A DNA stretch of 53,837 bases from Heminiphilus faecis (GTDB taxonomy: Bacteria > Bacteroidota > Bacteroidia > Bacteroidales > Muribaculaceae): assembly GCF_008728965.1 (NCBI RefSeq), contig NZ_VSMC01000021.1:1-53837 (forward strand), given 5' to 3'. Of the stretch, positions 31,147 to 53,837 are shown in pieces (within the stretch, counting starts at the first letter, position 1; every line of letters starts with the position of its first letter). The notes under the pieces were generated by a model. It was given only the letters and a program-made list of their open reading frames with translations, searched no databases and was not told the origin of the DNA. Position numbers and translations under genes: made by a program.

Positions 31147-32001
31147 TTATACGCCTTGAAGTTTGAATGTGATGGGCAGTGTGTACCAAACGTTAACCGA
31201 CTGACCGTTCATCTTACCCGGGATAAAATCGGGAAGAGTCTTTACTACACGAACAGCTTCTTTGTCAAGGTCGGGGTCCTTGCTTCGGGCCACCTTCACC
31301 TCACCAATCTTACCGGTCTTCGTTACCACGAACTGTATCACGACACGACCCTGAATATTATTCTCCATAGCTACAGGAGGATATTTGAGGTGGTCTGCGA
31401 TATACTTCATCAACGCTCCGTCACCACCGGGGAACTGAGGCATCTGCTCAACAGCGGTAAACACTTTGTTGTCCTCAACCGGCTTCTTTTCTTCAACTAC
31501 GATTTCGTCCTTATGTTCAAGCAGTACGTTACGGTCGTCAGTACCTTTATCGAAGTCGCTCTGACCGAATGCGGTAGTGGTTTCCTTAAGTTCGTCAGCG
31601 TCCTTAACTTCATCCTCAGCCGTCACCTTATCGTCGTCCACGATAGCGATTTCGGTAACCTTAACAGTGTTAAGGACCTCTTCAGGAAGCACTTCAGGCT
31701 TCTCCTCTTCGTAACGCTGCTGCTCCTCTTCGGGCTCCGGTTCGTCCTCGACAGCCTCACCAAGGTTAACCATGGTCTGTTCTGTCACGTCTTCAGGACG
31801 TTCATCGGCCTTAGGCAATACAGTGTTAACAATAAGCGGGAGGATGAAAGCTATAGCAATGATAATAACTACAACTATCATAGCCTTATTATGACGGGCG
31901 TCAGACTCCTTACGCAATTCATATGCGCCAAATTCTTTGTTTTTACCTTCAAAGACTATATCGCGCCATTCTTTTGATGAAAGATCTACATCTTTTGCCA
32001 T
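31147..32001 (-). CDS. tonB: TonB-family energy transducer
   Basis: The 284 residues start with a cytosolic Bacteroidetes-type segment (SKEWRDIVFEGKNKEFGAYE), then one transmembrane helix (about 43-63). A long acidic, Glu/Pro-rich periplasmic spacer follows (EDEPEPEEEQQRYEEEKPEV). The C-terminal TonB domain has QMPQFPGGDGALMKYIADHL, KYPPVAMENNIQGRVVIQFV and VWYTLPITFKL. It carries proton-motive energy from ExbB/ExbD to outer-membrane receptors. It is last in the operon, 42 bp after exbD, and is followed by a strong terminator. Confidence 0.92.
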   Translation of the reverse strand: MAKDVDLSSKEWRDIVFEGKNKEFGAYELRKESDARHNKAMIVVVIIIAIAFILPLIVNTVLPKADERPEDVTEQTMVNLGEAVEDEPEPEEEQQRYEEEKPEVLPEEVLNTVKVTEIAIVDDDKVTAEDEVKDADELKETTTAFGQSDFDKGTDDRNVLLEHKDEIVVEEKKPVEDNKVFTAVEQMPQFPGGDGALMKYIADHLKYPPVAMENNIQGRVVIQFVVTKTGKIGEVKVARSKDPDLDKEAVRVVKTLPDFIPGKMNGQSVNVWYTLPITFKLQGV

Positions 32002-32043
32002 TTTCTTCTGTCATTTAATAGTTAAACATATAGACACTCATCA

Positions 32044-32778
32044 TCAATTGCGAGGATGTTTAGCAAGATAATCGAAAATCATCAAAGAGTCAACATCGTT
32101 GATATTATCGATCTGGTAACGAGAAATCTGGTTGATCTGCATCTCGTCAAGAGCACCGATCAAACTTTCCCAAGATGCGTTGGGTCCGGCCTTGATAATC
32201 ACCACAGGACGATCGGTAATGAGAGAGTCATTACGAATCTGCTTGGCACGGGCCTGATACTCATCGTCGGAAATCTTCTTATCCTTCCAGTCGGCTTTCA
32301 GGACAGCGATCTTTTCGAGCACGGTCTTGTTTTTGTCATGAAGGATTTTACGGATACCTTGGGTCTCGCCGTTTACATTACCTACAAACTTCTCTACCTG
32401 AAGATTAGAGTTGTCGATACGACCGTCATGGTCCTCATCGGCAATCTCGGGTTTACCGAAATAATAGTATATCAGGTGAGCGGGCTTGCCGGTTTCGGGA
32501 TCAAACTTTACGTTTCCATCGGCGTCACGTTCGGTGTCGAGGATGAGCGTAACAGCCTGCGACTCCTTAGCCTTGTTTTGCTGCTCTTGCTCCACTTTCT
32601 CATTAGAAGGGAGTGAAATCTGCAAAGTCTGCGATTTAATCATCGTGGTACAAAGCATGAAGAACGTGATCAAAAGCATGTTCATATCCACCATAGGCGT
32701 AAAGTCCACGTGGATCGACATCTTCTTTTGGGCGCCTTTTTTCTTTTTGCCGTTATCGGATTGTTCTATCTGTGCCAT
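32044..32778 (-). CDS. exbD: Biopolymer transporter ExbD (second copy)
   Basis: The 244 residues have a basic N-terminal cytosolic end (KKKKGAQKKMSIHVDFTPMVDMNMLLITFFMLC by parts) with one transmembrane helix holding the proton-path Asp in FTPMVDMNMLL. A long periplasmic part follows with the ExbD/TolR-type C-terminal segment VVIIKAGPNASWESLIGALD. It is longer than E. coli ExbD (141 residues) through an insertion rich in charged residues, as common in Bacteroidetes. It lies 5 bp after the first exbD copy. Confidence 0.9.
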   Translation of the reverse strand: MAQIEQSDNGKKKKGAQKKMSIHVDFTPMVDMNMLLITFFMLCTTMIKSQTLQISLPSNEKVEQEQQNKAKESQAVTLILDTERDADGNVKFDPETGKPAHLIYYYFGKPEIADEDHDGRIDNSNLQVEKFVGNVNGETQGIRKILHDKNKTVLEKIAVLKADWKDKKISDDEYQARAKQIRNDSLITDRPVVIIKAGPNASWESLIGALDEMQINQISRYQIDNINDVDSLMIFDYLAKHPRN

Positions 32779-32783
32779 AATGA

Positions 32784-33485
32784 TTAATCGTTTTCAGTTT
32801 TCAACGCAGTCAAGAGACTGAATTTGTTCATCTTCAATGTCTGCAAGTTGTCAAGAACGTCATGGACGGTGTTGTAGGGAGTGTCCTTGTCGGCCTTGAT
32901 TGCAATACCCTCGCCCTTCTTGATAGCTGCTTCAAGATTGGGATTGGATGAATTGTAGATGGCACGCATCCAGATCTGGAACTCATTAGGTTTCGTAAGG
33001 TCCTTGTTGTCGTCGACGGGTATACCTACAGCAGGGTCGCTGAGGTTGGCAATGACTTCATCCTGCTTGGCCTGAGGAAGGTCAAGGAATGCGGGGAGGT
33101 CAGCTATACGCACACCGAACATGTTCAACTTGGAGAATTTTGAAACCTGTTCTTGAGTGAGCTGTACTTGTTTACTATGGGTCTTGTTATACTCTGCTAC
33201 GGCTGTCTGGATAAGCTCGGCACGCACCTTTTCACTTGAGAAGGTCGAGTCGGCGTCACCTGAAACCGAAAGGAACACCTTTCCTTCGGGAGAAATGAGC
33301 ACTGTCGTACAGTTGGTAAACGGCACTTTGATTTCCGACACAGAGGACGGAGTCATAACCGTTACCGGCTCCTTCTGAAGGAAGGTCGAAGTCAACATGA
33401 AGAAAGTAAGCAAAAGAACAGTCACGTCACTCATCGCGGTCATGTCGATGAGGGTACTCTTTTTCTTTATTTTTACTTTACCCAT
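32784..33485 (-). CDS. exbD: Biopolymer transporter ExbD (first copy)
   Basis: The 233 residues start with KVKIKKKSTLIDMTAMSDVT and one transmembrane helix (VLLLTFFMLTSTF), where the Asp in MTAMSDVTVLL is the expected proton-path residue. The periplasmic part ends with GIAIKADKDTPYNTVHDVLD, the ExbD/TolR C-terminal motif. It follows exbB by about 50 bp. Two non-identical ExbD proteins in one operon are usual in Bacteroidetes and may form a mixed dimer inside the ExbB pentamer. Confidence 0.9.
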   Translation of the reverse strand: MGKVKIKKKSTLIDMTAMSDVTVLLLTFFMLTSTFLQKEPVTVMTPSSVSEIKVPFTNCTTVLISPEGKVFLSVSGDADSTFSSEKVRAELIQTAVAEYNKTHSKQVQLTQEQVSKFSKLNMFGVRIADLPAFLDLPQAKQDEVIANLSDPAVGIPVDDNKDLTKPNEFQIWMRAIYNSSNPNLEAAIKKGEGIAIKADKDTPYNTVHDVLDNLQTLKMNKFSLLTALKTEND

Positions 33486-33538
33486 TGTGTTTCGTTGAGT
33501 TGATTAATAAAATCGTTTATTTTCCGAAAGACAACGGA

Positions 33539-34369
33539 TTAGTGAGTAGCAGCAAAAGTCTGAACGATTGAAAAACCGATCTCGTCGATTGCGTAAGTAA
33601 GGTTATCGATCTTGTTGGTGTAGAAGTTGTAAGAGATTACAGCAAATGCACCGGTTGCGATACCGAATGCGGTATTGATAAGTGCCTCGGAGATACCGGT
33701 AGAAAGCTCGGTAGCATCGGGAGCACCTGAAGCAGAAAGAGCTTGGAATGACTTGATCATACCCATTACAGTACCGAGAAGACCGACGAGAGTACCGAGA
33801 GTGGTAAGAGTTGCGACGATCGGGAGGTTCTGCTGAAGAGCGGGCATTTCGAGAGCGGTAGCCTCTTCAACTTCTTTCTGAAGAGTGGCGATCTTCTGCT
33901 CCTTGGAAAGAACGGTGTTCTTGTCCATTTCTTCGTAACGAACCAAAGCGGCAGAAACGACGGCAGCCACACTACCCTTCTGCTTAGCGCAGAGAGCCTG
34001 AGCACCGGCGATGTCATTTTTCTTAAGGCAAGCCTTTACGTTAGCAACAAACTTGGAGATGCTGCCTTTACCTTTAGCGCTTGAAAGAGCAATCCAACGC
34101 TCAACAGACAGAACGATAACGGTAAGGAACAAAGTCTGAAGAATAGGCACGATGAAACCGCCCTTGTAGATTGTACCCCAAAGATCCTGAGGATGGCCGG
34201 CTTCGTCGAAGTGCATGTCATGACCAAACCAGAAGATGAACAACAATAATGCTACGATAAAGCACACTACGATAACCAAGAATGCGTTCTTGATACCACG
34301 TACGTTAGAACCTTCGTTCTTAGGTTGTTTAGCCGTAGCGGCTCCAACATTGGTTTTTTGAGTTTCCAT
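33539..34369 (-). CDS. exbB: MotA/TolQ/ExbB proton channel protein
   Basis: The 276 residues have three hydrophobic helices: about 28-48, 70-90 with FIVPILQTLFLTVIVLSVERW, and the long TM2-TM3 pair in PIVATLTTLGTLVGLLGTVM and ALINTAFGIATGAFAVISYN. The conserved Thr/Gly/Pro pattern and the large cytosolic loop fit ExbB/TolQ. It forms the proton channel that powers TonB. It is the first gene of the four-gene operon; its promoter appears to be at 34635-34666, leaving a leader of about 260 nt. Confidence 0.92.
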   Translation of the reverse strand: METQKTNVGAATAKQPKNEGSNVRGIKNAFLVIVVCFIVALLLFIFWFGHDMHFDEAGHPQDLWGTIYKGGFIVPILQTLFLTVIVLSVERWIALSSAKGKGSISKFVANVKACLKKNDIAGAQALCAKQKGSVAAVVSAALVRYEEMDKNTVLSKEQKIATLQKEVEEATALEMPALQQNLPIVATLTTLGTLVGLLGTVMGMIKSFQALSASGAPDATELSTGISEALINTAFGIATGAFAVISYNFYTNKIDNLTYAIDEIGFSIVQTFAATH

Positions 34370-34634
34370 AATTTTTGAATAGAATGAATAATGTTATTAA
34401 TAATGAATTATTTTGATTTATGGTTAAATGCTGCGTCAATCAAGCCGGTGTGATCGGTATACATAAAACCGAAGCGAACTGTCGGCAGGCTCATTACCTA
34501 CGCAAAACGCCTCGTGCTTACTATATCGGGCCGTATCGATGAAGGCCATAAAACTGTGATTCATGTTCAAACTGCAACCGGTATCGATTTATAAACATTT
34601 GCTCCAACAACGGCTTTTGCCGTGATTGGATATG
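34370..34634 (-). other. Long 5' leader of the exbB-tonB operon
   Basis: Between the exbB ATG and the candidate promoter lie about 260 nt with no convincing reading frame. A small perfect hairpin (ACGGC, TTTT loop, GCCGT) is at 34610-34623, next to the expected transcription start. No known riboswitch was recognised. The rest of the gap to nqrA (34667-34879) holds only the nqrA promoter region. Confidence 0.4.
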
Positions 34635-34666
34635 CAAATTTATTATTATATTTTTTACAAACCAAA
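34635..34666 (-). promoter_or_regulatory. Bacteroidetes promoter for exbB-exbD-exbD-tonB
   Basis: On the minus strand TTTG (34666-34663) and TAAATTTG (34642-34635) are separated by 20 bp, a full match to the Bacteroidetes -33/-7 consensus. Confidence 0.6.
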
Positions 34667-34840
34667 TTTTGTACCGTGATTTTTATTAATTTATCCTTTA
34701 CAGATGCTGTGTTAATTTTTTAATATGTTACAAAGCATAATTTAACAAAATACGCCACATAATATCTGAATTTATCGTTACCGGAGGGCCGTTCCGTGAA
34801 TTTTTCACAACCAAAGTTAAGACAAACCAAAATTATCAGT

Positions 34841-34848
34841 TAACTTTG
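34841..34848 (+). promoter_or_regulatory. -7 box for the nqr operon
   Basis: TAACTTTG at 34841-34848 matches TAnnTTTG and lies 31 bp before the nqrA ATG. A -33 TTTG at the expected position is not evident. Confidence 0.5.
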
Positions 34849-34879
34849 CATTATTAAATATATCTATAGTATAATCCAC

Positions 34880-36223
34880 ATGGCAAAAGCTATAAAACTT
34901 AAGAAAGGGCTTGACATAAGGATCCACGGAGTCGCTCCGTCAGAGAGACTGAAGCGGATAATACCGGCTTCATGCGCCGTGGTACCTGACGATTATCAGG
35001 GTATAACCCCGAAAATCGATGTAAAGGAGGGCGACGCCGTGCTTGCAGGCTCGGTGCTGTTTCATGACAAGCAGTACCCCGATGTCAAGGTAGTGTCGCC
35101 TGTGGCGGGAACCATACAGAGCGTCGTAAGAGGCGAACGCCGCAAACTTGAACGCATAGTCATCATCCCGTCGCAGACTCCCGAAGAGTCAAAACGGTTT
35201 GACACGTCGGGCATCGATGACAGCGTACTTGCGCAGCGCTTACTGCTTGACTCCGGACTTTGGGCATGGATGCGCCAGCGACCTTTCAATATAGTACCGG
35301 CCCCGGGCACAGAGCCGCGCGACATAATGGTGACCGGTTTTGACTCGTCACCTCTGGCTCCTGACTATGAGATGTCGCTCGACGGGCACAAAGAGGATAT
35401 AAATGCGGCTGTAAGGCTCCTCGGCAAGTTCACAAAGGGCAATATATATATAGGTATACGCCGCGGCAGCTGCCTGACCGACATCAAAGGTGCCGAAACG
35501 ATAATATTCGACGGCCCCCACCCCGCCGGCAACGCAGGCATACAGATAGCAAACATCAACCCTGTCAACAAAGGCGACGTGGTGTGGACACTTGACGCCG
35601 TGACGCTCATGCGCATAGGACACCTTGTCAACACCGGCACTCTCGACATGAACGTAGATGTGGCCGTGACAGGATGTGAAGTAAAAACCCCCGGATACAT
35701 CAACACCATAGCCGGCGCCGACATAGCATCGCTGACTGAAGGCAACATCCACGATGACAATGTGCACCACCGCATAATATCGGGCAATGTGCTGACCGGT
35801 CATCCCGTGGGCAAGGATAGCTACCTCCGCTTCCCATACAACCATATAACGGTAATACCGGAAGGCGACGATCACGCAGAGTTCATGGGCTGGGCATCGC
35901 TGTCGCCACAGAAGATGAGTGTATCGCGTTCGTTTCCGGGCCACTTCACCAAGCGCCTGTTCTGCCCCGATGCCCGCATACTCGGCGGACGCCGAGCAAT
36001 GATCATGTCGGGCTTATACGACAAAGTCCTTCCGATGGACATCATGGCGGAATTTCTGATAAAAGCCGTCATATCGCGCAATATCGACCGCATGGAGCAG
36101 CTCGGCATCTATGAGGTGGCTCCCGAGGATTTCGCATTGTGCGAATACGTAGATCCGTCTAAGCTTGAACTGCAGAAAATACTTCAGGAAGGGCTCGAAT
36201 ACATACGTAAAGAACTCAATTAG
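34880..36223 (+). CDS. nqrA: Na+-translocating NADH:quinone reductase subunit A
   Basis: NqrA is the peripheral, cofactor-free subunit near the quinone site of the Na+-NQR pump. The 447 residues begin with KAIKLKKGLDIRIHG and the barrel-sandwich segment KVVSPVAGTIQSVVRGERRK. They lack the CxxC Fe-S motifs of the related RnfC, which separates Nqr from Rnf. The VTGFDSSPLAPDY and GHPVGKDSYLRFPYNH segments are typical. It is the first gene of nqrABCDEF; nqrB follows after 24 bp. Confidence 0.95.
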   Translation: MAKAIKLKKGLDIRIHGVAPSERLKRIIPASCAVVPDDYQGITPKIDVKEGDAVLAGSVLFHDKQYPDVKVVSPVAGTIQSVVRGERRKLERIVIIPSQTPEESKRFDTSGIDDSVLAQRLLLDSGLWAWMRQRPFNIVPAPGTEPRDIMVTGFDSSPLAPDYEMSLDGHKEDINAAVRLLGKFTKGNIYIGIRRGSCLTDIKGAETIIFDGPHPAGNAGIQIANINPVNKGDVVWTLDAVTLMRIGHLVNTGTLDMNVDVAVTGCEVKTPGYINTIAGADIASLTEGNIHDDNVHHRIISGNVLTGHPVGKDSYLRFPYNHITVIPEGDDHAEFMGWASLSPQKMSVSRSFPGHFTKRLFCPDARILGGRRAMIMSGLYDKVLPMDIMAEFLIKAVISRNIDRMEQLGIYEVAPEDFALCEYVDPSKLELQKILQEGLEYIRKELN

Positions 36224-36247
36224 AATCACAATAACATTTCCATAAAA

Positions 36248-37456
36248 GTGAAATCGCTCAGAAAATATCTTGACAGGATAAAGCCTCAGTTTGAACCCGG
36301 CGGACGCTTGCATGCATTTCAGTCGGTCTTTGACGGCTTTGAGACATTCCTGTTCACTCCCACCACCACTTCACGGTCGGGAGTAAGCATCCACGACAGT
36401 CTCGATTCAAAGCGTGTGATGATTATCGTAGTTCTGGCCCTTGTACCGTGTCTGCTGTTCGGCATGTACAATGTGGGCTATCAGCACTGGCTTTCCATCG
36501 GCGAGACTCAATTTCCGTTCTGGCAGCTTATGGCATACGGATTTCTCGCTCTGCTGCCCCGCCTTTTAGTGTCATACATCGTAGGACTCGGCATTGAATT
36601 TGTAGTGGCACAATGGCGCAAGGAAGAGATACAGGAAGGCTTCCTCGTATCGGGTATTCTCATACCGCTAATATGCCCTATCGAGATTCCGCTGTGGATG
36701 CTTGCCGTAGCCACTGCATTCTCGGTCATCTTTGTAAAAGAGATATTCGGCGGCACAGGCTACAACATATTTAACGTAGCTCTGGTGACCCGTGCGGTTC
36801 TATTCTTCGGTTATCCGTCAAAAATGAGCGGCGACAGCGTATTTGTATCCACAGGAAGCATATGCGGATTGGGAGAAGGAGCGGTTGTCGACGGATTTTC
36901 AGGAGCCACTCCTCTGGGACAGATAGCATCAAACACCGGCGACACACTCACACTGACAAACGTCATCGGAGAGCCCTTGTCGTTATGGGACATGTTTGTC
37001 GGTCTGATACCCGGTTCGGTCGGAGAAACCTCTACCCTCTGCATACTTATCGGCGCCGCCATACTGCTGGCTACCGGTATAGCAAGCTGGCGCATCATGT
37101 TGTCGGTATTTGCCGGCGGGTTCGTCATGGCAGCCATAGCCCACGCATGTCCTTCGGCTTCATACCCGGCCTCGATGCTTACCCCGCTACAGCAACTTAC
37201 TCTCGGAGGCTTCGCATTTGCGGCCGTATACATGGCCACCGACCCGGTCACCGCATCGCGCACAAATCCGGGCAAATACATATACGGCTTCCTTATCGGA
37301 GTCATAGCAGTGCTTATACGCACCTACAACAACGGTTATCCTGAAGGAGCCATGCTCGCCGTGTTGCTGATGAACGCGTTTGCCCCGCTTATCGACTACA
37401 CAGTCGTTCAATCCAATATCAGACGCCGTCTGCGTCGCCTTAAAACCAAAGTATAA
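36248..37456 (+). CDS. nqrB: Na+-translocating NADH:quinone reductase subunit B
   Basis: NqrB is an integral membrane subunit with a covalent FMN and a riboflavin site. The 402 residues start at GTG 36248 (KSLRKYLDRIKPQF) and contain about nine to ten hydrophobic helices. The FMN-attachment motif SGAT is at 218-221 (GFSGATPLGQI), so Thr221 is the expected phosphoester-linked residue. MATDPVTASRTNPGKYIYG is the conserved loop near the end. Length agrees with the family. Confidence 0.95.
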   Translation: MKSLRKYLDRIKPQFEPGGRLHAFQSVFDGFETFLFTPTTTSRSGVSIHDSLDSKRVMIIVVLALVPCLLFGMYNVGYQHWLSIGETQFPFWQLMAYGFLALLPRLLVSYIVGLGIEFVVAQWRKEEIQEGFLVSGILIPLICPIEIPLWMLAVATAFSVIFVKEIFGGTGYNIFNVALVTRAVLFFGYPSKMSGDSVFVSTGSICGLGEGAVVDGFSGATPLGQIASNTGDTLTLTNVIGEPLSLWDMFVGLIPGSVGETSTLCILIGAAILLATGIASWRIMLSVFAGGFVMAAIAHACPSASYPASMLTPLQQLTLGGFAFAAVYMATDPVTASRTNPGKYIYGFLIGVIAVLIRTYNNGYPEGAMLAVLLMNAFAPLIDYTVVQSNIRRRLRRLKTKV

Positions 37457-37462
37457 ACAGAT

Positions 37463-38173
37463 ATGAACAAGCAAAGCAACACTTATACTATCATATATAT
37501 TGTCGCGCTCGTCATAATAGTAGGCACGGCTTTGGCATTTACGGCACTGTCGCTTAAACCGCTGCAGACCGCCAACGCCGACGCCGACAAGATGAAGCAG
37601 ATACTGGCGTCAGTCCATATCGCTCCCGCCAAAAGCGACATAATAACTGACTTCGACAAGTATATCACCGACCGTTTTGTCATCGATGCCGAAGGCAAGC
37701 GAGTCGAGGGCGACGCATTCGCCATAAACGTATCGGCACAAAGCAAACTTCCGCAGGCAGAGCGCAAGCTCCCCGTATATGAGTGCACGCTGACTCCCGG
37801 TGATGTCAAATACATACTGCCGGTATACGGCGCAGGGCTGTGGGGGCCTATATGGGGCTACGTAGCCGTAAACTCCGACGGCTCGTCAATATACGGAGCA
37901 TACTTCGCTCATCAGGGCGAGACTCCGGGTCTTGGCGCAGAGATAGAGAAGCCGGCGTTCAGCGACCAGTTCACCGGTCTGAACCTCTTCAAGGAGGGTG
38001 CCTTCAAACCCGTCAACGTCATAAAAGCCGGACAGGCTCCCATGAACGGAGAAGACTATGTCGACGCAATATCGGGCGGCACAATAACATCCAAAGGAGT
38101 AGCTTCAATGCTTGACAACTGCCTGTCAGGTTATAAGACCTTTCTTGAAAGTCTCACCAACAAAGGACAATAA
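37463..38173 (+). CDS. nqrC: Na+-translocating NADH:quinone reductase subunit C
   Basis: NqrC holds one N-terminal transmembrane helix (about 9-30) and a periplasmic FMN domain. The flavinylation motif is SGGTITSK at 204-211, where the family has SGATxTS; Thr209 is the expected FMN-bound residue. GLWGPIWGYVAVNSDG and GETPGLGAEIEKPAF are conserved. The flavin transferase ApbE needed for attachment is not in this window. It starts 6 bp after nqrB. Confidence 0.95.
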   Translation: MNKQSNTYTIIYIVALVIIVGTALAFTALSLKPLQTANADADKMKQILASVHIAPAKSDIITDFDKYITDRFVIDAEGKRVEGDAFAINVSAQSKLPQAERKLPVYECTLTPGDVKYILPVYGAGLWGPIWGYVAVNSDGSSIYGAYFAHQGETPGLGAEIEKPAFSDQFTGLNLFKEGAFKPVNVIKAGQAPMNGEDYVDAISGGTITSKGVASMLDNCLSGYKTFLESLTNKGQ

Positions 38174-38178
38174 CAATC

Positions 38179-38802
38179 ATGGCATCAAACAATAAAAACC
38201 TCATAACCCTGCTCAATCCGCTGTCAAAGGACAATCCGGTAATTGTACAGATACTCGGCATTTGCTCCTGCCTTGCCGTGACTGCCAAGCTCGAACCGGC
38301 ATTTGTAATGGGCATATCGGTCATAGCAGTACTGGCATTCTCCAATGTCATAATATCGCTTCTTCGCAACACCATCCCCACCAACATACGTATTATTGTA
38401 CAGCTCGTGGTGGTGGCCGGTCTTGTAGTTATCGTAAACCAGTTGCTCATGGCTTACCAATATGACGTAAGCAAGCAGCTTTCGGTATTCATAGGCCTTA
38501 TCGTCACTAACTGTATACTCATGGGACGCCTCGAGGCATTTGCCATGGGCAACAAACCGTGGCCGTCATTCCTTGACGGGATAGGCAACGGTGTGGGCTA
38601 TGCGCTTATCCTCGTCATCGTAGCCTTTGTGCGCGAGTTGCTCGGCAGCGGCACTATATGGGGATTTCAGGTCATACCCGACAGCTGGTACGAACACGGT
38701 TATGCCAATAACGGCCTTATGATATTGCCGCCCATGGCCCTTATAGTGGTGGGCTGCATAATATGGATTCACCGCAGCTACAACAAAGAGCTCCAAGAGT
38801 AA
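38179..38802 (+). CDS. nqrD: Na+-translocating NADH:quinone reductase subunit D
   Basis: The 207 residues form about six transmembrane helices. The family sequence LGICSCLAVTAKLEPAFVMG contains the Cys that helps bind the intramembrane Fe-S centre at the NqrD/NqrE interface; TNCILMGRLEAFAMGNKPW holds the second. Length and position between nqrC (5 bp) and nqrE (26 bp) are standard. Confidence 0.95.
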   Translation: MASNNKNLITLLNPLSKDNPVIVQILGICSCLAVTAKLEPAFVMGISVIAVLAFSNVIISLLRNTIPTNIRIIVQLVVVAGLVVIVNQLLMAYQYDVSKQLSVFIGLIVTNCILMGRLEAFAMGNKPWPSFLDGIGNGVGYALILVIVAFVRELLGSGTIWGFQVIPDSWYEHGYANNGLMILPPMALIVVGCIIWIHRSYNKELQE

Positions 38803-46134: not shown

Positions 46135-46439
46135 TCCACGCGGATAGAGACCGTATGCCGTCCTCCCGATAGAACGATTGGGAGGACATCATCCGGTCAC
46201 TATCCCTTTTGCGGGACTATTTATCGCATTGCCGAAACCTGTTTGCACCGGCCGTCCTTTTTATCTTTCGTTGCCAAACGGTATGCCGGATATACAAAAC
46301 CGGTGAGAGTGAAAGTAAGAGACGGCCTTTCACCTGCCCCGGCATTTGCACATCCCGCATCCCGTTGATTTCAATCCACGCGGATAAAGACCGCTCACTT
46401 CCACGGATCGGCAATGCCGTACCGTTCCCTGTGCGGGAC
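46135..46439. repeat. Degenerate direct duplication
   Basis: TCCACGCGGATAGAGACCG at 46135-46153 recurs as TCCACGCGGATAAAGACCG at 46375-46393. Downstream of each copy GCGGGAC is followed by an AT-rich TTATC-like stretch (46211-46217 and 46433-46439), and upstream of each is a CCxxCCCGC-like stretch. The spacing between the shared blocks differs (about 57 and 39 bp), so the two copies are diverged, about 230 bp apart. A hairpin (GTCCTCCCGAT with ATTGGGAGGAC, 46160-46187) sits only in the first copy. Confidence 0.5.
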
Positions 46440-46515
46440 ATTATCCTCAGCTGGACTACATTTCCGTCTTTTTATTTTTTCTTTCCGCTGCCGCCGCTAA
46501 TGTATAATCCGCAAA

Positions 46516-46592
46516 ACGAAGCGTGCAACGCCTCCAGAACGAAACGTGCCAAAAATAAAACGAAACGTGAGGCTCAAACAAAACGAAGCGTA
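46516..46592 (+). repeat. Four iteron-like ACGAARCGTR repeats
   Basis: ACGAAGCGTG at 46516-46525, ACGAAACGTG at 46539-46548, ACGAAACGTG at 46560-46569 and ACGAAGCGTA at 46583-46592. The start-to-start distances are 23, 21 and 23 bp, about two helical turns, so all copies face the same side of the DNA. The distances are not all multiples of three, so this is not a coding repeat. Confidence 0.6.
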
Positions 46593-46610
46593 CCATCGGT
46601 GCGCTTTTTT
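46587..46610 (+). terminator. Hairpin with T tract
   Basis: AGCGTACC and GGTGCGCT pair (one G-T) around ATC and are followed by TTTTT. The left arm overlaps the fourth ACGAARCGTR repeat. It looks like a small plus-strand terminator although no plus-strand gene is upstream within 900 bp. Confidence 0.45.
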
Positions 46611-46658
46611 ATTACAGCCGCTACTCTCCCATTTTTCAAAAAATTTTCGCCCGACTTC

Positions 46659-46684
46659 GCCGGGGTCTGTGGGTTGACCCCGGC
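46659..46684. repeat. Perfect 9-bp inverted repeat
   Basis: GCCGGGGTC (46659-46667) and GACCCCGGC (46676-46684) are exact reverse complements around an 8-nt loop. No T tract follows on either strand, so it is not a standard terminator. Confidence 0.5.
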
Positions 46685-46722
46685 GCGACTCCGGCTCTCC
46701 CCTGCTCCACTCCACTATATTT

Positions 46723-46755
46723 GAACGGCCTCCGAACATCATTCGAAGGCCGTTC
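46723..46755. terminator. Bidirectional hairpin behind the tail-fibre gene
   Basis: GAACGGCCT (46723-46731) pairs with AGGCCGTTC (46747-46755), and inside it CGAA (46733-46736) pairs with TTCG (46742-46745), giving a 13-bp stem with one mismatch. TTTTC follows on the plus strand. It lies about 55 bp beyond the tail gene stop and probably ends that transcript. Confidence 0.6.
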
Positions 46756-46780
46756 TTTTCGTGTTGCGCTTTTCGCTTTG

Positions 46781-46795
46781 GGTCGCTGCGCGACC
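46781..46795. repeat. GC-rich hairpin just past the tail-fibre stop codon
   Basis: GGTCGC, TGC loop, GCGACC: a perfect 6-bp stem with a 3-nt loop, 16 bp beyond the stop codon of the tail-fibre gene. It is flanked by two direct copies of CGCTTTGG. Short GC-rich hairpins just downstream of the variable repeat help target recognition in known diversity-generating retroelements, so the position is suggestive. Confidence 0.5.
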
Positions 46796-46811
46796 GCTTT
46801 GGCTTCGCCGC

Positions 46812-49800
46812 TCACGCAACCTCGGCCAACGCTTTAAACGCGGCCACGCTCTGCGCCCTGACGAGTTTGCCGCGGAAGGCCAGGCGCGACCCGACATACG
46901 CGAACGCATTCGAAGCATCGTTATACGCATACGCGAACGACACGCCGCCACCCGCACTCGCGCCGCTGCCGCCGCGATAGACCACACGGCCTGTGCCGGT
47001 CGTCAGCCAGTACATATCGCAGTAGTGCGTAGAGGACGAACCGTTGGTGGTGCCTACGGGGATTACTGCCATATAGAGGCCGTGGGCCACAGCTGCTGTC
47101 CATGCGCCGGAGTTGGTATGGCCCTTGATCATTACCGTGGTGCCGTCGGGGAACCATATACGCCACTTGCCGACATTGCCGTTTGTGTTCGGAAGATCCA
47201 CCCCGTCCATCATGTCGTACTTGTGGCCGTATATGTCCTCATAGCCCAGACAGCAGATATTGTTCATCTGCTCGACGGTCTTTGAACCATACTCCTCCTT
47301 GATATACCAGGCATACTGGTGAACGAGGTTATCGATAAGCGAGTTGGTGACATTCGGGTTGACGGCCTTGGCCGCCTCGTAGCCCACGGTGTCGGTCATG
47401 CCGTACTTCATTGTACCGCCGACTGTGCGGTTGTTGGTATGGGAACCGGCTCCGCATTGTTCCTGGGCGTCCCTGCGACCATATTTGGCATAGAAGAGGT
47501 TGGCGATGCGGAAGTGCATAAGCGCGTCTATCTGCTGCATTCCCCGCTGCGCGCTATAATAGTGGAAGTCGGTCCAGGACATACTTGCCAGCGTGTATTT
47601 GCCGGCAACGGCCGCTCTGAACTTGCCGTTGACCTCGGAAGTGCCTACCACGGCACAGAGGTGTTCGTCATCGTAGTACCAGTCCGGCTCCATGTCCTCG
47701 ATCTTCGTGGAGTTGGACAGCACGACCTTGTCAAACTCTGCCGTGGGCAGTATGGTGAAGTGGAGCGAAACAGCACCTTCGGGCACATCAGATATGAGGT
47801 ACATGCCCGGCTCGAACTTGTTGGCAAGGGTCGGTACTATGACCTCGCTGACCTTGTTGCCCTGCGCATCGCAGAAGATGGATCCCATGAGGTTTGTTCC
47901 GGGAACGGTCGGGAAGCGCACACGCTTATGCTTTGACACATCGACGGAGCAGACAGCATAGGCACTGTCGGTGCTGTATGAGGCGGCAAGGGTAGCCTTC
48001 CCGGTCATGATCTTTCTCCCCTGCAGATAGTCGCCGGCAGTCTTAATATCCTCAAGGGTGAGGACATCGGCTTCAGGGCGCGCCGGGGCTTTGTCTTTGG
48101 CGTTGTTGCTGTAGCAGGAGTAGTGCTTGGCCTTGAGGTAGTCGTTGATTCCCTTGGACCACATTCCGGGTTCGTACATCATCAGATCGCCCTCGGTGGA
48201 ATCGAGTTTCGCCGGGGTGCAGTTGGCTGTATCCTCTGCGTCGGCGTAGTAGTTGGAGTTGCTATCGTGCAGGGGGAACCATGTCATCTCGCCGTCAAGG
48301 TTGTTCATCGTGGTCTCTACGTTGGCGATGGTGACCTGGCGCGTTGTGGCCTTTTTCGTCACTTTGGCGAGTGTCTTGTGGCGTTTGGCGAGTATCGCGG
48401 AAATATGGCCGCTGGGCCTGTATTCGTTGCCGTATTTGTAGCCTGTGCCGTTGTCGAGGTTGCTGACGTTGGCGTCGTCGCTGACGGAGTCGTCGAACTC
48501 GATCATGGTGTATTCGGGCTGAACGATGTTCAGTTCGGGGAAGTGGGCGCACATCTGCTCGTAACGGCCCTTCTCGATATACTTTGTAAGCCGTACGGTA
48601 CCGACAAGGGCGCATGTGTCGGTGTAGTTGCCTTCGGCATCGACGCCGCCCATCGTCATAAACTTGTTGAGCCATGTGCCGTCATCCTCGCGGTCTATGC
48701 CGGTGACACGGATGCGGTCGGCATTGGCGCAGCGGTTCAGCAGTGTCTCCCAGTTAAGCCCGGGGCAGTTGTCGAAGATGAAGGTGCGAACGTTGCCGTA
48801 GGTCTCCAGTGTCAGGCCGCCGGGGGTGAGCTTCGAGAGATACTCGAGGCGCAGGGTGGTCAGGGTTCCCGGAAGCCGGGCTATTGTCAACGGGGCGCCT
48901 TTGGCGAAGTTGACGCTCTGGACTTTCGTGCCTCTCGCGTCGAGTTCCTCAAGTCTTGTCTGGTTGCTCAGGTCGAGGGCGGTGCTCGTGCTGCCGCCGG
49001 TCTTGGCCTGGGCCTGGTTCCTCAGGCTGAGTCGACGCAGCTGACGGCAGTTCCCTATCGACAGCCACCACCCGGTGGAGCCGCCTCCCTGCGGCGCGTC
49101 GAGGTTGAGTTCGCGCAGCACGGAGCATTTGCCGAGGTCGAGGGCGTTCTTGAGGTGGCCTGCCGCCCCGGTCATGTCGAGGGTCCTTATCCTGCTGGCT
49201 CCGTAGAGACGCAGGGGGTCGTTGACGGTATAGGCCCCGGTGATGTCGAGGATGGCGGTGTCGCCGGCATCCACGATGCCGGTGTTGGCGATGTTGGGGC
49301 TGTTGTTGGTGCCGTACCCGTAGGCGTAGGGCTCGTTGGCCGTGATCCGCACGGTGTCGGCGGCGTCGCCAGCTGTCCTGGCGAGGTAGAGGTCTATGTT
49401 GTCGGAGGTGAAGTTGCTCGTGCCGTATTTGGCGTCGAGAAGGGCGAATCGGTTCCTGATGAAGTAGGTGCGGTGGCTCTTGTTGCTGCCCTGCAGGGCG
49501 TAGATGAAGGGCCACACCTTGCCGTACATGACCCTCGTGGCCGGGGCGATGTATTTCAGGTAGCCGCTCTTGTTGAAGGCGCGGTCGCTCCAGTTGCCGC
49601 TCTGCTCGTCGTTGAGCATCGACAGCACGCGCTCGACGGTCATCACGGCGCGGTAGTTGGCGGCGCAGCGTCTGAGGTCGTCCTGGAGGTTGGCCAGCAC
49701 GAGGTTCCACAGCACGCTGTCGAAGCCCTCCATCGCGTATTTGCCGGCCTCGGCATCCCATGTGTCGCGCATGGTGGTGTAGAGGTAGACAAGGAAGCAG

Positions 49801-52800
49801 TCGTTGCGCTTGCCTAACTGGGTGTCGCCGTCGTAGTAGGTGATGTACCATATCAGCCCGTCCCATGTGCGCAGTATCATGTTCTTGGCAAACTGATCGA
49901 CTCCAAGTCCGTATTCGCGGTCTATATAGTAGGTGAGTATGAAGTCCTTGTCGAAGTATCGGTCTATCTCGGCCTTGAATTTCGGACTGACATAGGTTGA
50001 CAGGTTTGATGACGTCGCTCCGGCCGGCACGCATGACCGCAGCCATGAATGCAGACGGAGGATGGCCTGCTGCTGTTTTGTTGACAGCCCGGCCCATTTG
50101 ACGTCGCCGTCGGTCTGTACCTTCCCGGCTGAGTCCACTCCGTAGTTGACCTCGGCGCCGCCGTCGAATTTCTCGATGAGTTCCGCGTCGGTCTTTGTCG
50201 AGAACAGGCACACCGGGGAGGTGTTGTTCAGGGTCTCGAGCGCTATGGGGCATTCGGGGGTGAAGCCTTCCACTCCCTCCATGCCGAACACCGGGCCGCT
50301 CTTGCTCTTCTCGTTGTTGAAGTTGTACTGGCCGTAATAGACGTTCTCGCCGTCTGCGGTCTCGGCGCAAAAGATGTCTATGGGCATACCGTCGATGGCG
50401 GTGCGCACGTTTATGGCCGCGAGGCTGTTGCCGCCCTGCTCGTACTGGTGACGCTGCGGCGGGGTGAGCAGCCCGAGTTCCTTCATGGTATCATTGAACA
50501 GCTTTGCCCAGCCGGTATTCAATGACATCGACGAATCGGAGTAGTCGCTCTTGCAGCAGACGATGGGGACAGGCACGGCACCGGGGCGCATGACGTATTT
50601 GTTGCCGGCAAGCACGTTCTTCCCTGTCATGGAGAGTTTCTCGCTCCCCTTGGTGAAGTAGATGCGGATGTTCTTGCTCGGATATTTGGTCGACGACGTG
50701 CCCTGTATCCTGATGTAGCAGTTGGAGAGGATGAAGTCGTAGTCCGGCCCGAGCGCGGAGTAATAATAGACGTCGGCCAGGAAGTCGGTCTTTTTGTTGT
50801 TGGTCTCGTAAACGTCGTCGAGCATGTTCTTCCTGACGATGCGCAGGACTCCCTTGCCCTGGGCGCGCAGTTTGTCGAGGTCGACATCGCCGTTGTCGCC
50901 CAGGATGTCGTTCATGGTGAATTCGCCCATCATCTCCTCGGTGGTCTCGCAGTCGACGATGCGGTTCTCGAGTTCCTCGTCGTCGCTGAGGGCGCGGTTA
51001 TATACACGTATGCTCTTTATCTCGATGTCGGCCTCGGTGCTGTCGATGGTGATCTCCTGCGGCGTGTCCTGACGGAAGCTGAAGGAGGAGTCGTAGATGT
51101 CGGCGCCGTTGCGGTTGCCGTTGATGTAGAGTTCCATCAGCCTGTCCTGTGCGGCCGTGCCTACTGTCAGGGCGACCTTGGTCCACTCTCCCTCGACGAT
51201 GTTGGTGGCGAGTTTGATCTCGCGCGTCACCTGCTCGTCGTCCTCGTTGGTGTAGGTGACGGTCTGCCCGGTTCTGAAGCTCGCCTCGGAGGTGGTTATC
51301 AAAAGGCCTTTGCCCTTGTCAAGGCAGGATACGACGGGGGCGGTGCGGTCCATGATGTTGCTGACGCGCATGGTCATCTCTATTGTCAGGCCTGTGGCCT
51401 TGACATCGGTGGCGAAAGGATTGTAGCCGATGGTGGCCCTCGCTCCGTTGGTGAGCTTCAACGCCCCGTCTATCCATCCGCTGCTGCCCCAGTCCACGTT
51501 TTCAAACGACGTTGTAATGCCGTTCGATTCCCATTTGGCGCGGTCATCGGGGCTTTCGTCGTTGCTACGTCCGGCTGCGTCGAGCTTGAACTGGAGGCCG
51601 AACTGCGCCTCGCCGATGTCGATACCGCTCTCGGCTACATCGACCTGTATGGTGTAGCTTGCTGAGCCGAGCTTGAGTTGCAGGGTCTGACGGCCTTTCT
51701 CGGTGAAGCGGTTGGTGTAGGTCTGCGCCGTCCTGGGCACGCTGACGGTGCGTGCCAGGGTGCCGTTGTGCCACAGTTCGACCGTGGCCGGAACCACGGA
51801 GGGGTCGTAGGCGGCGAAGTCGAAGGTGCATTTCTCGTACTGCCCTGCCTCGATGACCGGGACGGAGTGAGCCGCCCCGGTGAGTATGCGCCCGTCGGGG
51901 TGTATGATCTTGGTGCCTATGAAGGGCGCGCTGCTGCCGCGTTTGAGGATGTCGAAGTAGATGCTCTCGCTGCGGAGCGTCAGGCCGTCCTGCTCCATCT
52001 CGGCCACCATCTGAACGGTATGGCGCCCCACCGACAGCCCGGCCATGTCGAGGGTGAAGTTGGAGTTGGTAGTGCCGCTCCTGGTCACGGAGTGGAGGTT
52101 GCGCTGCACCCCGTCGACATACAGTATTACGGATTTAGTGCCGGCACCGGACACGGCATAAGGTATCTCGACCTTGTCGTGTAGGTCGTAACCGCCCTGC
52201 GCGAGTCCGGCGGCCACGTTGTATGAGCTTGAGAGGTTAAGGCTGACGACCTTGACGCTGACGTAGGCCGGCTTGCGCTGCTGCTTGCCGGTGGTAGGGT
52301 CGGTAGTGGTGGCGGTGACATAGATGTCGCTCGTGCCGAGAAGGAGGTATTTCGTAAGGTCGAGGGTATAGGTGCCTTTGCTCACATCCTGCCTGGTCTC
52401 GCTGTAGGTGGTGACGATGCCGCGCTTGACGGTGATTTCCACTGTGGCCTTCTGCCCGGTGCTTGTTCCGGCTTCCTCGCCGGTAAACTGGTGGTCATAG
52501 CTCCATGTAAGGATGGCGGAGCCGCCCTCCTTTATGGTAGACGCACTCAGCGATGCGTTCAGCACTATCTTGGTGCCGGCGGATTCTCCGCCGCCGCCCC
52601 CGCCAGCCGGTATGTTGAATTCGGTAATGACGGAGCTTTTGCTCTTGAGCTGCACGGTGACGGTGCCGTCCTCGTTCTCTATGACCTCGTTGTTGAAAAG
52701 AGTGCCGGATTCCAGTTCCGACAGCTTGGCTGTCACTACCCCGTTCTGCACCGGGTTGGTGCTCGAGGCGTTGAGGCTGTCGTCGACCTCCACCTCGTCG

Positions 52801-53774
52801 ATGGTGATGCCGACATTGCCCTCCGCGTCCGGCGTTTTCTTTTCGCCGTTGACGGTGATGCTCCTGACGGTGTTCTTCGAACCGTATTCTTCCCACGCGC
52901 CGGGATTGGTGAATGTCGACAGGCTCGTGCCGATGAAACGGTAGTCCTCCCATTTGCCGGCCGCGCTCTCGAAGGTGATGATCATGCCGCGCTTATGGTC
53001 ATCGTCTATGTCGGCCTCGGCGAGTTTGGCCACGGCGGTCGCCTTTGTGTAGTAGCCGGTTCTCAACGGATGCAGGGCTGTGACGTTGTAATATCCGCTG
53101 CCGCTCCCGGTCCCGGCGGTGGCGAACGGCATCCACTTGGTCGCGTCGGATATGTCGTTGTCCGGGTCGCCGGTAAACTGCCACGACTCCCAGCCTTTCG
53201 GGCCGCGGAATATCATCACGCAGCCAATGGACATATACTCCTCCCCATCGGATTGTGCTAGATTCGCAAGGGCGTCCTTTGCGGCTGACCAGTCGGCGAA
53301 CACCCGGTCTTTGTCACCGAGTATGTCGTTGACCAGTACGACCGGGTGCCGGCGTGCGGCCTCAATGGCCACCTGAAGTTGCGATGTGGCATCATTGGCT
53401 GCCGTGGCGGCATCCCGCGCCTGTGTAGCCGCAGTATTTGCTGCCACAGCAGCCAGTCCGGCCGCGTCCTTGGCATTGTTGGCTGCCTGCGCCGCTGTAT
53501 TAGCATTAGTGGCGGCAGCGTTGGCTGTCCTGGCCGCGTCCTCGGCCGGCTTGCGCAACAGCGACACAGGGGCGCTTACGACCTCCGTGCCGCGTATTGC
53601 CGGCAGTGTGGTGATTCCTTCGAGGCTCGATACTACGGGTAGTTCGTCGATGCTCTGGCTCTCGGCTTTGATCGCGTTGAGCATTTCGTTCTTTTCTGCC
53701 TGTGTAAGTGCCATATGGAAAAGCCACTCTACTTTGACCCTTTTGGCCAAACAGAATTTACCCACCTTGGCCAT
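46812..53774 (-). CDS. Giant phage tail-fibre/receptor-binding-like protein with C-type-lectin-like end
   Basis: Residues are numbered from ATG 53774; an inner ATG at 53714 (MALTQAEKNEML, residue 21) may be the true start. Residues 21-75 resemble the N terminus of Bacteroides phage tail fibres (LPVVSSLEGITTLPAIRGTE). About 76-141 are an Ala-rich heptad coiled coil (trimer stalk). About 170-310 hold two repeated tail modules (WESWQFTGDPDN; WEDYRFIGTSL). Gly6 at about 388 precedes Ig-like segments. LamG-like 720-925; CotH-kinase-like about 1013-1326; leucine-rich-repeat-like 1518-1690; lectin-like end about 2060-2320 with a hypervariable segment 2270-2293. No signal peptide, so export by phage or contractile machinery is likely. 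DNA is GC-richer than the core genes. No other tail gene is in the window. Confidence 0.85.
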   Translation of the reverse strand: MAKVGKFCLAKRVKVEWLFHMALTQAEKNEMLNAIKAESQSIDELPVVSSLEGITTLPAIRGTEVVSAPVSLLRKPAEDAARTANAAATNANTAAQAANNAKDAAGLAAVAANTAATQARDAATAANDATSQLQVAIEAARRHPVVLVNDILGDKDRVFADWSAAKDALANLAQSDGEEYMSIGCVMIFRGPKGWESWQFTGDPDNDISDATKWMPFATAGTGSGSGYYNVTALHPLRTGYYTKATAVAKLAEADIDDDHKRGMIITFESAAGKWEDYRFIGTSLSTFTNPGAWEEYGSKNTVRSITVNGEKKTPDAEGNVGITIDEVEVDDSLNASSTNPVQNGVVTAKLSELESGTLFNNEVIENEDGTVTVQLKSKSSVITEFNIPAGGGGGGESAGTKIVLNASLSASTIKEGGSAILTWSYDHQFTGEEAGTSTGQKATVEITVKRGIVTTYSETRQDVSKGTYTLDLTKYLLLGTSDIYVTATTTDPTTGKQQRKPAYVSVKVVSLNLSSSYNVAAGLAQGGYDLHDKVEIPYAVSGAGTKSVILYVDGVQRNLHSVTRSGTTNSNFTLDMAGLSVGRHTVQMVAEMEQDGLTLRSESIYFDILKRGSSAPFIGTKIIHPDGRILTGAAHSVPVIEAGQYEKCTFDFAAYDPSVVPATVELWHNGTLARTVSVPRTAQTYTNRFTEKGRQTLQLKLGSASYTIQVDVAESGIDIGEAQFGLQFKLDAAGRSNDESPDDRAKWESNGITTSFENVDWGSSGWIDGALKLTNGARATIGYNPFATDVKATGLTIEMTMRVSNIMDRTAPVVSCLDKGKGLLITTSEASFRTGQTVTYTNEDDEQVTREIKLATNIVEGEWTKVALTVGTAAQDRLMELYINGNRNGADIYDSSFSFRQDTPQEITIDSTEADIEIKSIRVYNRALSDDEELENRIVDCETTEEMMGEFTMNDILGDNGDVDLDKLRAQGKGVLRIVRKNMLDDVYETNNKKTDFLADVYYYSALGPDYDFILSNCYIRIQGTSSTKYPSKNIRIYFTKGSEKLSMTGKNVLAGNKYVMRPGAVPVPIVCCKSDYSDSSMSLNTGWAKLFNDTMKELGLLTPPQRHQYEQGGNSLAAINVRTAIDGMPIDIFCAETADGENVYYGQYNFNNEKSKSGPVFGMEGVEGFTPECPIALETLNNTSPVCLFSTKTDAELIEKFDGGAEVNYGVDSAGKVQTDGDVKWAGLSTKQQQAILRLHSWLRSCVPAGATSSNLSTYVSPKFKAEIDRYFDKDFILTYYIDREYGLGVDQFAKNMILRTWDGLIWYITYYDGDTQLGKRNDCFLVYLYTTMRDTWDAEAGKYAMEGFDSVLWNLVLANLQDDLRRCAANYRAVMTVERVLSMLNDEQSGNWSDRAFNKSGYLKYIAPATRVMYGKVWPFIYALQGSNKSHRTYFIRNRFALLDAKYGTSNFTSDNIDLYLARTAGDAADTVRITANEPYAYGYGTNNSPNIANTGIVDAGDTAILDITGAYTVNDPLRLYGASRIRTLDMTGAAGHLKNALDLGKCSVLRELNLDAPQGGGSTGWWLSIGNCRQLRRLSLRNQAQAKTGGSTSTALDLSNQTRLEELDARGTKVQSVNFAKGAPLTIARLPGTLTTLRLEYLSKLTPGGLTLETYGNVRTFIFDNCPGLNWETLLNRCANADRIRVTGIDREDDGTWLNKFMTMGGVDAEGNYTDTCALVGTVRLTKYIEKGRYEQMCAHFPELNIVQPEYTMIEFDDSVSDDANVSNLDNGTGYKYGNEYRPSGHISAILAKRHKTLAKVTKKATTRQVTIANVETTMNNLDGEMTWFPLHDSNSNYYADAEDTANCTPAKLDSTEGDLMMYEPGMWSKGINDYLKAKHYSCYSNNAKDKAPARPEADVLTLEDIKTAGDYLQGRKIMTGKATLAASYSTDSAYAVCSVDVSKHKRVRFPTVPGTNLMGSIFCDAQGNKVSEVIVPTLANKFEPGMYLISDVPEGAVSLHFTILPTAEFDKVVLSNSTKIEDMEPDWYYDDEHLCAVVGTSEVNGKFRAAVAGKYTLASMSWTDFHYYSAQRGMQQIDALMHFRIANLFYAKYGRRDAQEQCGAGSHTNNRTVGGTMKYGMTDTVGYEAAKAVNPNVTNSLIDNLVHQYAWYIKEEYGSKTVEQMNNICCLGYEDIYGHKYDMMDGVDLPNTNGNVGKWRIWFPDGTTVMIKGHTNSGAWTAAVAHGLYMAVIPVGTTNGSSSTHYCDMYWLTTGTGRVVYRGGSGASAGGGVSFAYAYNDASNAFAYVGSRLAFRGKLVRAQSVAAFKALAEVA
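46893..46967 (-). other. Candidate diversity-generating-retroelement variable repeat (VR core)
   Basis: Codons 2270-2293 of the tail-fibre gene read AGC, AGT, GGT, TTC, TAT, TAT, AAC, AAT, TTC and TAT at residues 2270, 2273, 2275, 2280, 2282, 2284, 2285, 2289, 2291 and 2293. All are NNY codons derivable from AAC or AAT by changing only adenines. They alternate with fixed GCG, GGC and TCG codons that contain no adenine. The GC-rich block 46892-46869 (20 of 24 bases G or C) follows and could be the initiation-of-mutagenic-homing region. The encoded part ends in GSRLAFRGK, as in C-type-lectin-fold variable proteins. Confidence 0.7.
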
Positions 53775-53831
53775 AATATGATTGACCCTTTAAAGTCCTG
53801 GTGTTAGGGGTCAATTTTATTTTACCCTTTT
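53734..53831 (-). repeat. Three TTKACCCTTTW repeats around the start of the tail-fibre gene
   Basis: On the plus strand TTGACCCTTTT (53734-53744), TTGACCCTTTA (53782-53792) and TTTACCCTTTT (53821-53831) recur at 48 and 39 bp. ATTGACCC (53781-53788) and GGGTCAAT (53808-53815) also form an inverted repeat just upstream of ATG 53774. The first copy falls inside the longer reading of the gene, which is one reason to suspect the inner ATG at 53714. Confidence 0.45.
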
Positions 53832-53837
53832 AATTCT

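Follow-up and report, generated by a model that had tools for sequence, protein, structure and literature searches.

Among the known systems closest to the locus analysed here is hankyphage p00 of Bacteroides dorei which, in the parts of PMC6199706 and PMC12135933 drawn on here, is a Mu-like transposable phage whose giant fibre open reading frame (ORF) carries a variable repeat (VR) at its 3′ end. Its VR and template repeat (TR) differ at adenines, and its reverse transcriptase (RT), homologous to that of the lineage described below, is followed by a DUF4376-type ORF, hp80, thyA, and an MTase gene; VR, TR, and RT are all annotated in its record. Another reference point is the mtd diversity-generating retroelement (DGR) of Bordetella phage BPP-1, in which changes are likewise confined to adenines at the 3′ end of the target gene and a hairpin downstream of the VR is required, according to the portion of PMC3240598 used here.

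The window (the whole stretch of 53,837 nucleotides analysed here) carries a close counterpart. With a probability of roughly 93%, we read positions 46991 to 46881, on the minus strand, as the VR of a DGR that diversifies the fibre tip of a Mu-like, hankyphage-type temperate phage, here apparently present as a prophage remainder whose VR is probably frozen. Hosts of this phage type are Muribaculaceae and related Bacteroidales. The giant tail-fibre gene (46812..53714, minus strand) encodes 2,300 residues from a probable start ATG at 53714 and is homologous to the p00 fibre ORF (31489-38226). The ORF as listed is longer (53774..46812, 2,320 residues), the 20 codons ahead of that ATG being read from the end of an insertion sequence (IS); ATG 53714 was preferred as the start because phage homology ends at 53715/53716 and the ORF of the closely related prophage in genome G062 begins at the equivalent ATG. 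The protein belongs to PHROG 14959, annotated as of unknown function. The sequence-only reading had placed the variable residues in a C-type-lectin-like part of the protein; by sequence, the fibre returned neither a Pfam family over the cut-off nor a PDB match, and a CLec fold is given for the homologous p00 protein in the consulted part of Benler et al. 2018 (PMC6199706).

That reading had proposed a DGR-type repeat at 46893..46967 on the basis of codon types. The location was right and the extent too narrow, the VR covering about 111 bases (46881..46991); the codon pattern is real, on the minus strand, which had been left unstated. Read from 46967 to 46893, 10 of 25 codons belong to the seven types originally listed, and 14 of the other 15 are free of adenine, much as claimed. 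The count of 10 is the maximum for the fibre gene, reached by 2 of its 2,296 segments of 25 codons (this one included); plain NNY content (16/25) is not unusual, being matched by 1,126 of the 2,296. On its own the codon count would prove little, and it is the comparisons with relatives that are decisive. Against the TR of relatives, 15 of the 111 bases differ, spread over 11 codons, most of them of the types originally given. Three changed codons fall outside those types (GGC at 46970, just beyond the range first proposed, GGC at 46964, and GCG at 46907, from ACG), and two codons that do belong to them, AAC at 46922 and AAT (46910), are the same as in the template.

The TR used as reference (L145:9676-9786, identical to L085:6281-6391 and to the TR of genome G021) has 26 adenines in 111 bases, and every one of the 15 differences in the window's VR lies at one of them (hypergeometric, 5.7e-12). 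Comparison with the G062 prophage is sharper still: window positions 46502-53715 align without gaps to L080:4453-11666 over 7,214 bases with 15 differences in total, all inside the 111-base VR and all at adenines of the G021 TR, so that a variable repeat sits amid 7,103 identical bases. The two prophages have hosts of different genera and different insertion sites. Beyond the VR, locus L044 has 0 differences from the window over 6,724 bases, and within it there are 11; its VR differs from the TR at 11 positions, 10 of them adenines and the eleventh the final base of its contig (L044 and L145 are parts of one IMG/VR contig, 3300019364_000022). Locus L045 is identical to the window over 6,745 bases, its contig ending about 20 bases into the VR. 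Such endings inside the VR occur in 4 of 9 loci checked (of 37), as would be expected if assemblers meet many variants there. The alignments demonstrate recent, adenine-confined VR divergence between otherwise identical phages. The DGR reading of the codon pattern gains support from the mismatches at TR adenines (15/15), and the anticipated restriction of variation to adenine positions was borne out: near-identical phages differ only in the VR, at template adenines where a TR is comparable, the exception being the last contig base of L044.

By tblastn, the last 195 residues of the fibre match 26 phage records (22 carry the name Bacteroides phage, and p00 is included) and 37 IMG/VR loci; a match is present in 16 of 198 whole genomes, the window's own counted, and G062, G090, G021, G105, and the window's genome share one family label. 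The sequence-only reading had called for a TR and an RT with an (I/V/L)GxxxSQ motif, and both are found in close relatives, though not in the window's own draft assembly. L145, in a near-identical phage, couples its TR to a stop-free RT of 434 residues with the motif IGLRSSQ. GLRSSQ is conserved in all 10 aligned RTs of relatives; the motif in its full proposed form holds for 7 (I in 6, L in 1), the first position being F in 2 of the others and K in 1. The RT of the window's lineage is homologous to that of p00 (71% at the amino acid level). In intact relatives, the error-prone RT would copy TR RNA with misincorporation opposite adenines, and the resulting cDNA would take the place of the VR in the 3′ end of this gene; TR and RT would act across a distance of about 26 kb and from the opposite strand, not from directly downstream. 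We infer these molecular steps, as well as the receptor-binding role of the fibre tip.

Receptor-binding tips are variable in many phages, and ordinary diversifying selection on the fibre tip, operating without a retroelement, would draw on that general tendency. It is refuted by the contrast between 7,103 unchanged bases around the VR and 15/15 changes at template adenines inside it, the TR and RT of the relatives also speak against it, and we give it practically no weight. A less remote alternative is that the VR differences of near-identical phages arose by recombination with the VRs of other phages, not by de novo DGR activity in each lineage. These phages are indeed mosaic, G062 matching the L044 end of the shared IMG/VR contig at 99.9% and the L145 stretch of the same contig at 75-90%. 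Yet the non-adenine bases of the VR are alike in the window, G062, and L044 (bar the last base of L044), and donor VRs would themselves be products of a DGR; we consider such exchange an improbable source of the differences.

How much of that system persists here is a separate matter. The window is a complete contig (C25) of a 91-contig draft assembly, within which a DNA search for the TR found the VR to match only itself beyond chance, and a protein search gave a single match, again the VR. No DGR-type RT was found in this genome. Two RTs exceeded the Pfam cut-off and were rejected as DGR RTs: one in C42 (L001:1240-2586) has UG27 as its best PADLOC match and lies downstream of a gene that we take to be PcfJ-like, and the other, in C59 (L002:1357-2193, minus strand), is best matched by retron type VI. 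For the remainder of the phage, about 29 kb (9.0 + 15.5 + 4.6 kb) of the G062 phage contig, its last 2.4 kb lying outside the query, was searched at the DNA level against the 3.05 Mb of this genome, and no part matched beyond the fibre gene, VR/TR similarity, and five pieces of C41 at 65-84%. A Portal_Mu search was empty here and equally empty in control genomes and is hence uninformative. Contig C41 was rejected as the missing part of the prophage: it holds the right end of another hankyphage-like phage, with hp80, thyA, and an MTase gene (L119:15470-17525; MTase 58-62% and ThyA 79-81% amino acid identity with the phages compared), cut by the same IS as the fibre gene of the window. The end of this multi-copy IS forms the last 122 bases of the window (53716..53837), adjoining the fibre start codon and extending to the contig end. 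Of 22 other near-full-length matches to it at ≥97% in the genome, 20 lie no more than 6 bases from a contig end, one is internal to C90, and one is in C20; in L100 (L100:1-606) the IS occurs with an ORF that is presumably IstB-like. Because the IS abuts the start codon, and because no TR, DGR RT, or other matched part of the phage was found in the assembly, we regard the VR as probably orphaned and frozen in this genome, as far as the draft assembly shows, and the fibre gene resembles what is left of a prophage of this type.

Alternatively, this strain could hold a complete and active prophage of which the assembly, broken at the IS, has lost the remainder. The contig does end within a multi-copy IS, TR and RT could be unassembled in a draft of 91 contigs, and a VR that differs from that of G062 without change elsewhere implies recent diversification. 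Set against this are the roughly 29 kb of a near-identical prophage contig left unmatched, the second phage end in C41 that was likewise cut by the IS, the assignment of the only two RTs to other types, and a listed genome completeness of 99.98%. A complete prophage is therefore unlikely, if less so than the recombination account above, and an orphaned repeat in a prophage remainder is favoured.

In relatives of the window's lineage, TR and RT do not lie beside the VR; they lie about 26 kb from it on the opposite strand. Eight VR-TR pairs of this remote layout are separated by 25.65-26.27 kb, all on opposite strands, and in the eight such pairs on one contig 78 of 80 mismatches fall at a TR adenine (78 of 81 counting the last base of L044); G062 was left out of this count on account of its altered TR, its own VR and TR differing at 13 sites of which 4 are adenines. 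The block TR-RT-DUF4376-hp-thyA-MTase that follows the fibre gene in p00 is found inverted beside MuF/portal in G062, G021, and G090. In the wider family, 78 distinct adjacent VR/TR pairs were identified; with 3 set aside for having over 45 differences, 793 of 952 VR/TR differences in the other 75 are at a TR adenine. Counting against the main reading, 8 of the 75 have a VR with adenine at two or more positions that are not adenine in the TR assigned to it. Where a pair has no more than 25 differences (70 pairs), 59 of 781 differences are not at adenines. The VR itself is one more case of a known kind, and the layout is a variant: the lineage has a phage DGR whose template, on sequence evidence, acts on an opposite-strand target at a distance of 26 kb. 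Remote targets are, in the section of Roux et al. 2021 consulted (PMC8144416), a class that the authors' own survey would miss.

The TRs themselves vary in this phage group. A repeat upstream of the RT was taken as the TR in at least 178 of at least 184 RT loci (at least 99 distinct), a set to which one search contributed the best 80 of 117 loci, in which some loci repeat one genome, and in which a VR could pass for a TR where no second repeat lies near. Adenines number 13-20 in 6 of the at least 99 distinct TRs and 22-30 in the rest. One TR is common to L145, L124, L122, L123, and G021, and in three lineages, G062 (L081:10590-10700), G105 (L086:12208-12318), and L187 with L189, the TR appears altered at adenines, the direction of change being presumed from which TR is the more common. 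The TR site of G062 differs from that of L123 by 13 changes, all at adenines (3.5e-10); the 1,489 bases downstream show no substitutions and a single inserted base, and the upstream side is divergent (42/161 columns). The inserted base, an extra C in a C run at about L081 position 11988, real or a sequencing error, shifts the frame of the G062 RT near its C-terminus. Only 7 of 15 differences between the window's VR and the G062 TR site, and the 4 of 13 for G062's own VR, are at adenines, a poor fit that we attribute to the rewriting of that TR. The G062 VR keeps adenine at 7 of the 13 changed sites and was therefore probably made before the TR changed, and for G062 these retained adenines led us to reject the idea that the TR is a plain copy of its own present VR. 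In G105, 8 of 10 TR changes relative to G021 are losses of adenine (downstream identity 95.8%); its VR carries all 8, and the 5 VR/TR differences left are all at adenines. The prophages L187 (Phocaeicola coprocola) and L189 (P. plebeius) share one TR with 3 of 3 changes at adenines, which both VRs carry, and L187 differs from L237 by 1 substitution in 1,489 bases downstream of the TR and 0 in 160 upstream. Further TRs low in adenine (L166, L193, L229, L255) are less clear cases, L229 being mixed (14/25). Separately, L251 has a repeat near the RT with an internal deletion. The 24 TR changes comprise 14 to G, 7 to T, and 3 to C, and the VR changes 349 to T, 295 to G, and 78 to C. Ordinary small TR changes occur too: 2 of 6 TR pairs with at most 1 substitution in the flanking 1,489 bases differ only at a non-adenine site.

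We lean, by a small margin, toward the view that in this group the TR too is a target of the DGR, with rewriting at its adenines, and that a TR changed in this way is passed on and serves as the new template; cDNA might home into the TR, or a VR might convert it. The changes may be assembly errors, against which stand the origin of L187 and L189 in two species and the presence of the changed bases in the VRs of G105, L187, and L189. Our literature search, which left bioRxiv and most subscription journals uncovered, found no report of altered TRs, including in the parts consulted of PMC10907252, PMC4372165, PMC10743442, PMC10053308, and PMC12875486. The B. thetaiotaomicron hankyphages of PMC12135933 are described there as having identical TRs, which speaks against frequent TR change, and the TR sequence is said to stay unaltered in the corresponding part of PMC10907252, a statement that natural TRs altered at adenines run against. 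If TR rewriting is real, a tested VR could become the new baseline or the system could burn out, and DGRs are able either to fix or to erode the sequence space that they search.

The right end of the transposable phage lies at 46502..46590, with its boundary at about 46502 and AAAACGAARCG repeats at 46513, 46557, and 46580 that may be sites of the transposase-binding type. Homology starts at 46502/46503 in G062, L054, L061, and L039 (G021:C10), and, under a slightly looser pattern, three end repeats spaced by 44 and 22-23 bases recur in L080, L054, L061, L121, and L087, with two in L083. The host side of the boundary begins after trkA/trkH-like genes. Two near-copies of ccacgcggataRagaccg are visible by eye at 46136-46153 and 46376-46393, in the host spacer that adjoins the end of the phage. 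Between the fibre gene and the phage end, a hairpin (GGTCGC-GCA-GCGACC, 46781..46795, minus strand) begins 86 nt past the VR and is a candidate post-VR hairpin; of 16 loci scanned, 8 have a 6-bp hairpin at +86 (the window, G062, L043, L054, L061 with one loop change, G090, G105, and L049). An imperfect GC hairpin before CGAAAA (46650..46665, minus strand; one stem mismatch, by eye) is possibly the counterpart of a perfect 6-bp stem with a loop of 3-4 nt that ten other loci of the 16 have at +121 to +174 (in p00, ACGGGC-GTCA-GCCCGT). A motif scan of 15 loci, counting non-overlapping matches, gave G090 and p00 and not the window. A terminator-like inverted repeat follows the fibre gene at 46723..46755 (minus strand, by eye), and its stem is perfect in G105.

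Set beside p00, the window's lineage shares the phage type and the target. The relatives carry p00-like transposase, capsid, tail, and fibre genes (MuA 29% in G062 and G021 and absent from the G090 stretches compared; MuB 29-30%; MCP 73% and 76% in G062 and G021, with none listed for G090; fibre 66-67% amino acid identity between p00 and G062, G021, and G090), and the window retains the fibre gene and right end only. In p00, TR and RT directly follow the fibre gene on the same strand, whereas in the window's lineage the TR-RT-thyA-MTase block is about 26 kb away, inverted, and adjoining MuF/portal, and no cassette accompanies the window's own copy in the assembly. The order fibre-TR-RT-thyA-MTase at the right end is thus absent from this lineage, which we file as related to the hankyphages, not as hankyphage proper, because its cassette is inverted and remote; the genus threshold given in the consulted part of PMC12135933 is an intergenomic similarity over 70%. 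BPP-1 is a different phage with a different target, and its hairpin, as described in part of PMC3240598, has a 4-nt GRNA loop within 4-34 bp of the VR, whereas that of the window lies 86 nt from the VR with a loop of 3 nt, and other loci have loops of 3-4 nt at +121 to +174. Thiohalocapsa PB-PSB1 (PMC10907252, in the part consulted), with VRs distant from the RT, lost DGR parts, and mobile elements, and the DGR loci of Nanoarchaeota (PMC4372165, likewise in part), with VRs away from the RT and loss of DGR parts, resemble the present case in these respects; they differ in being bacterial and archaeal loci, whereas the window's lineage is a phage with a fixed inverted layout.
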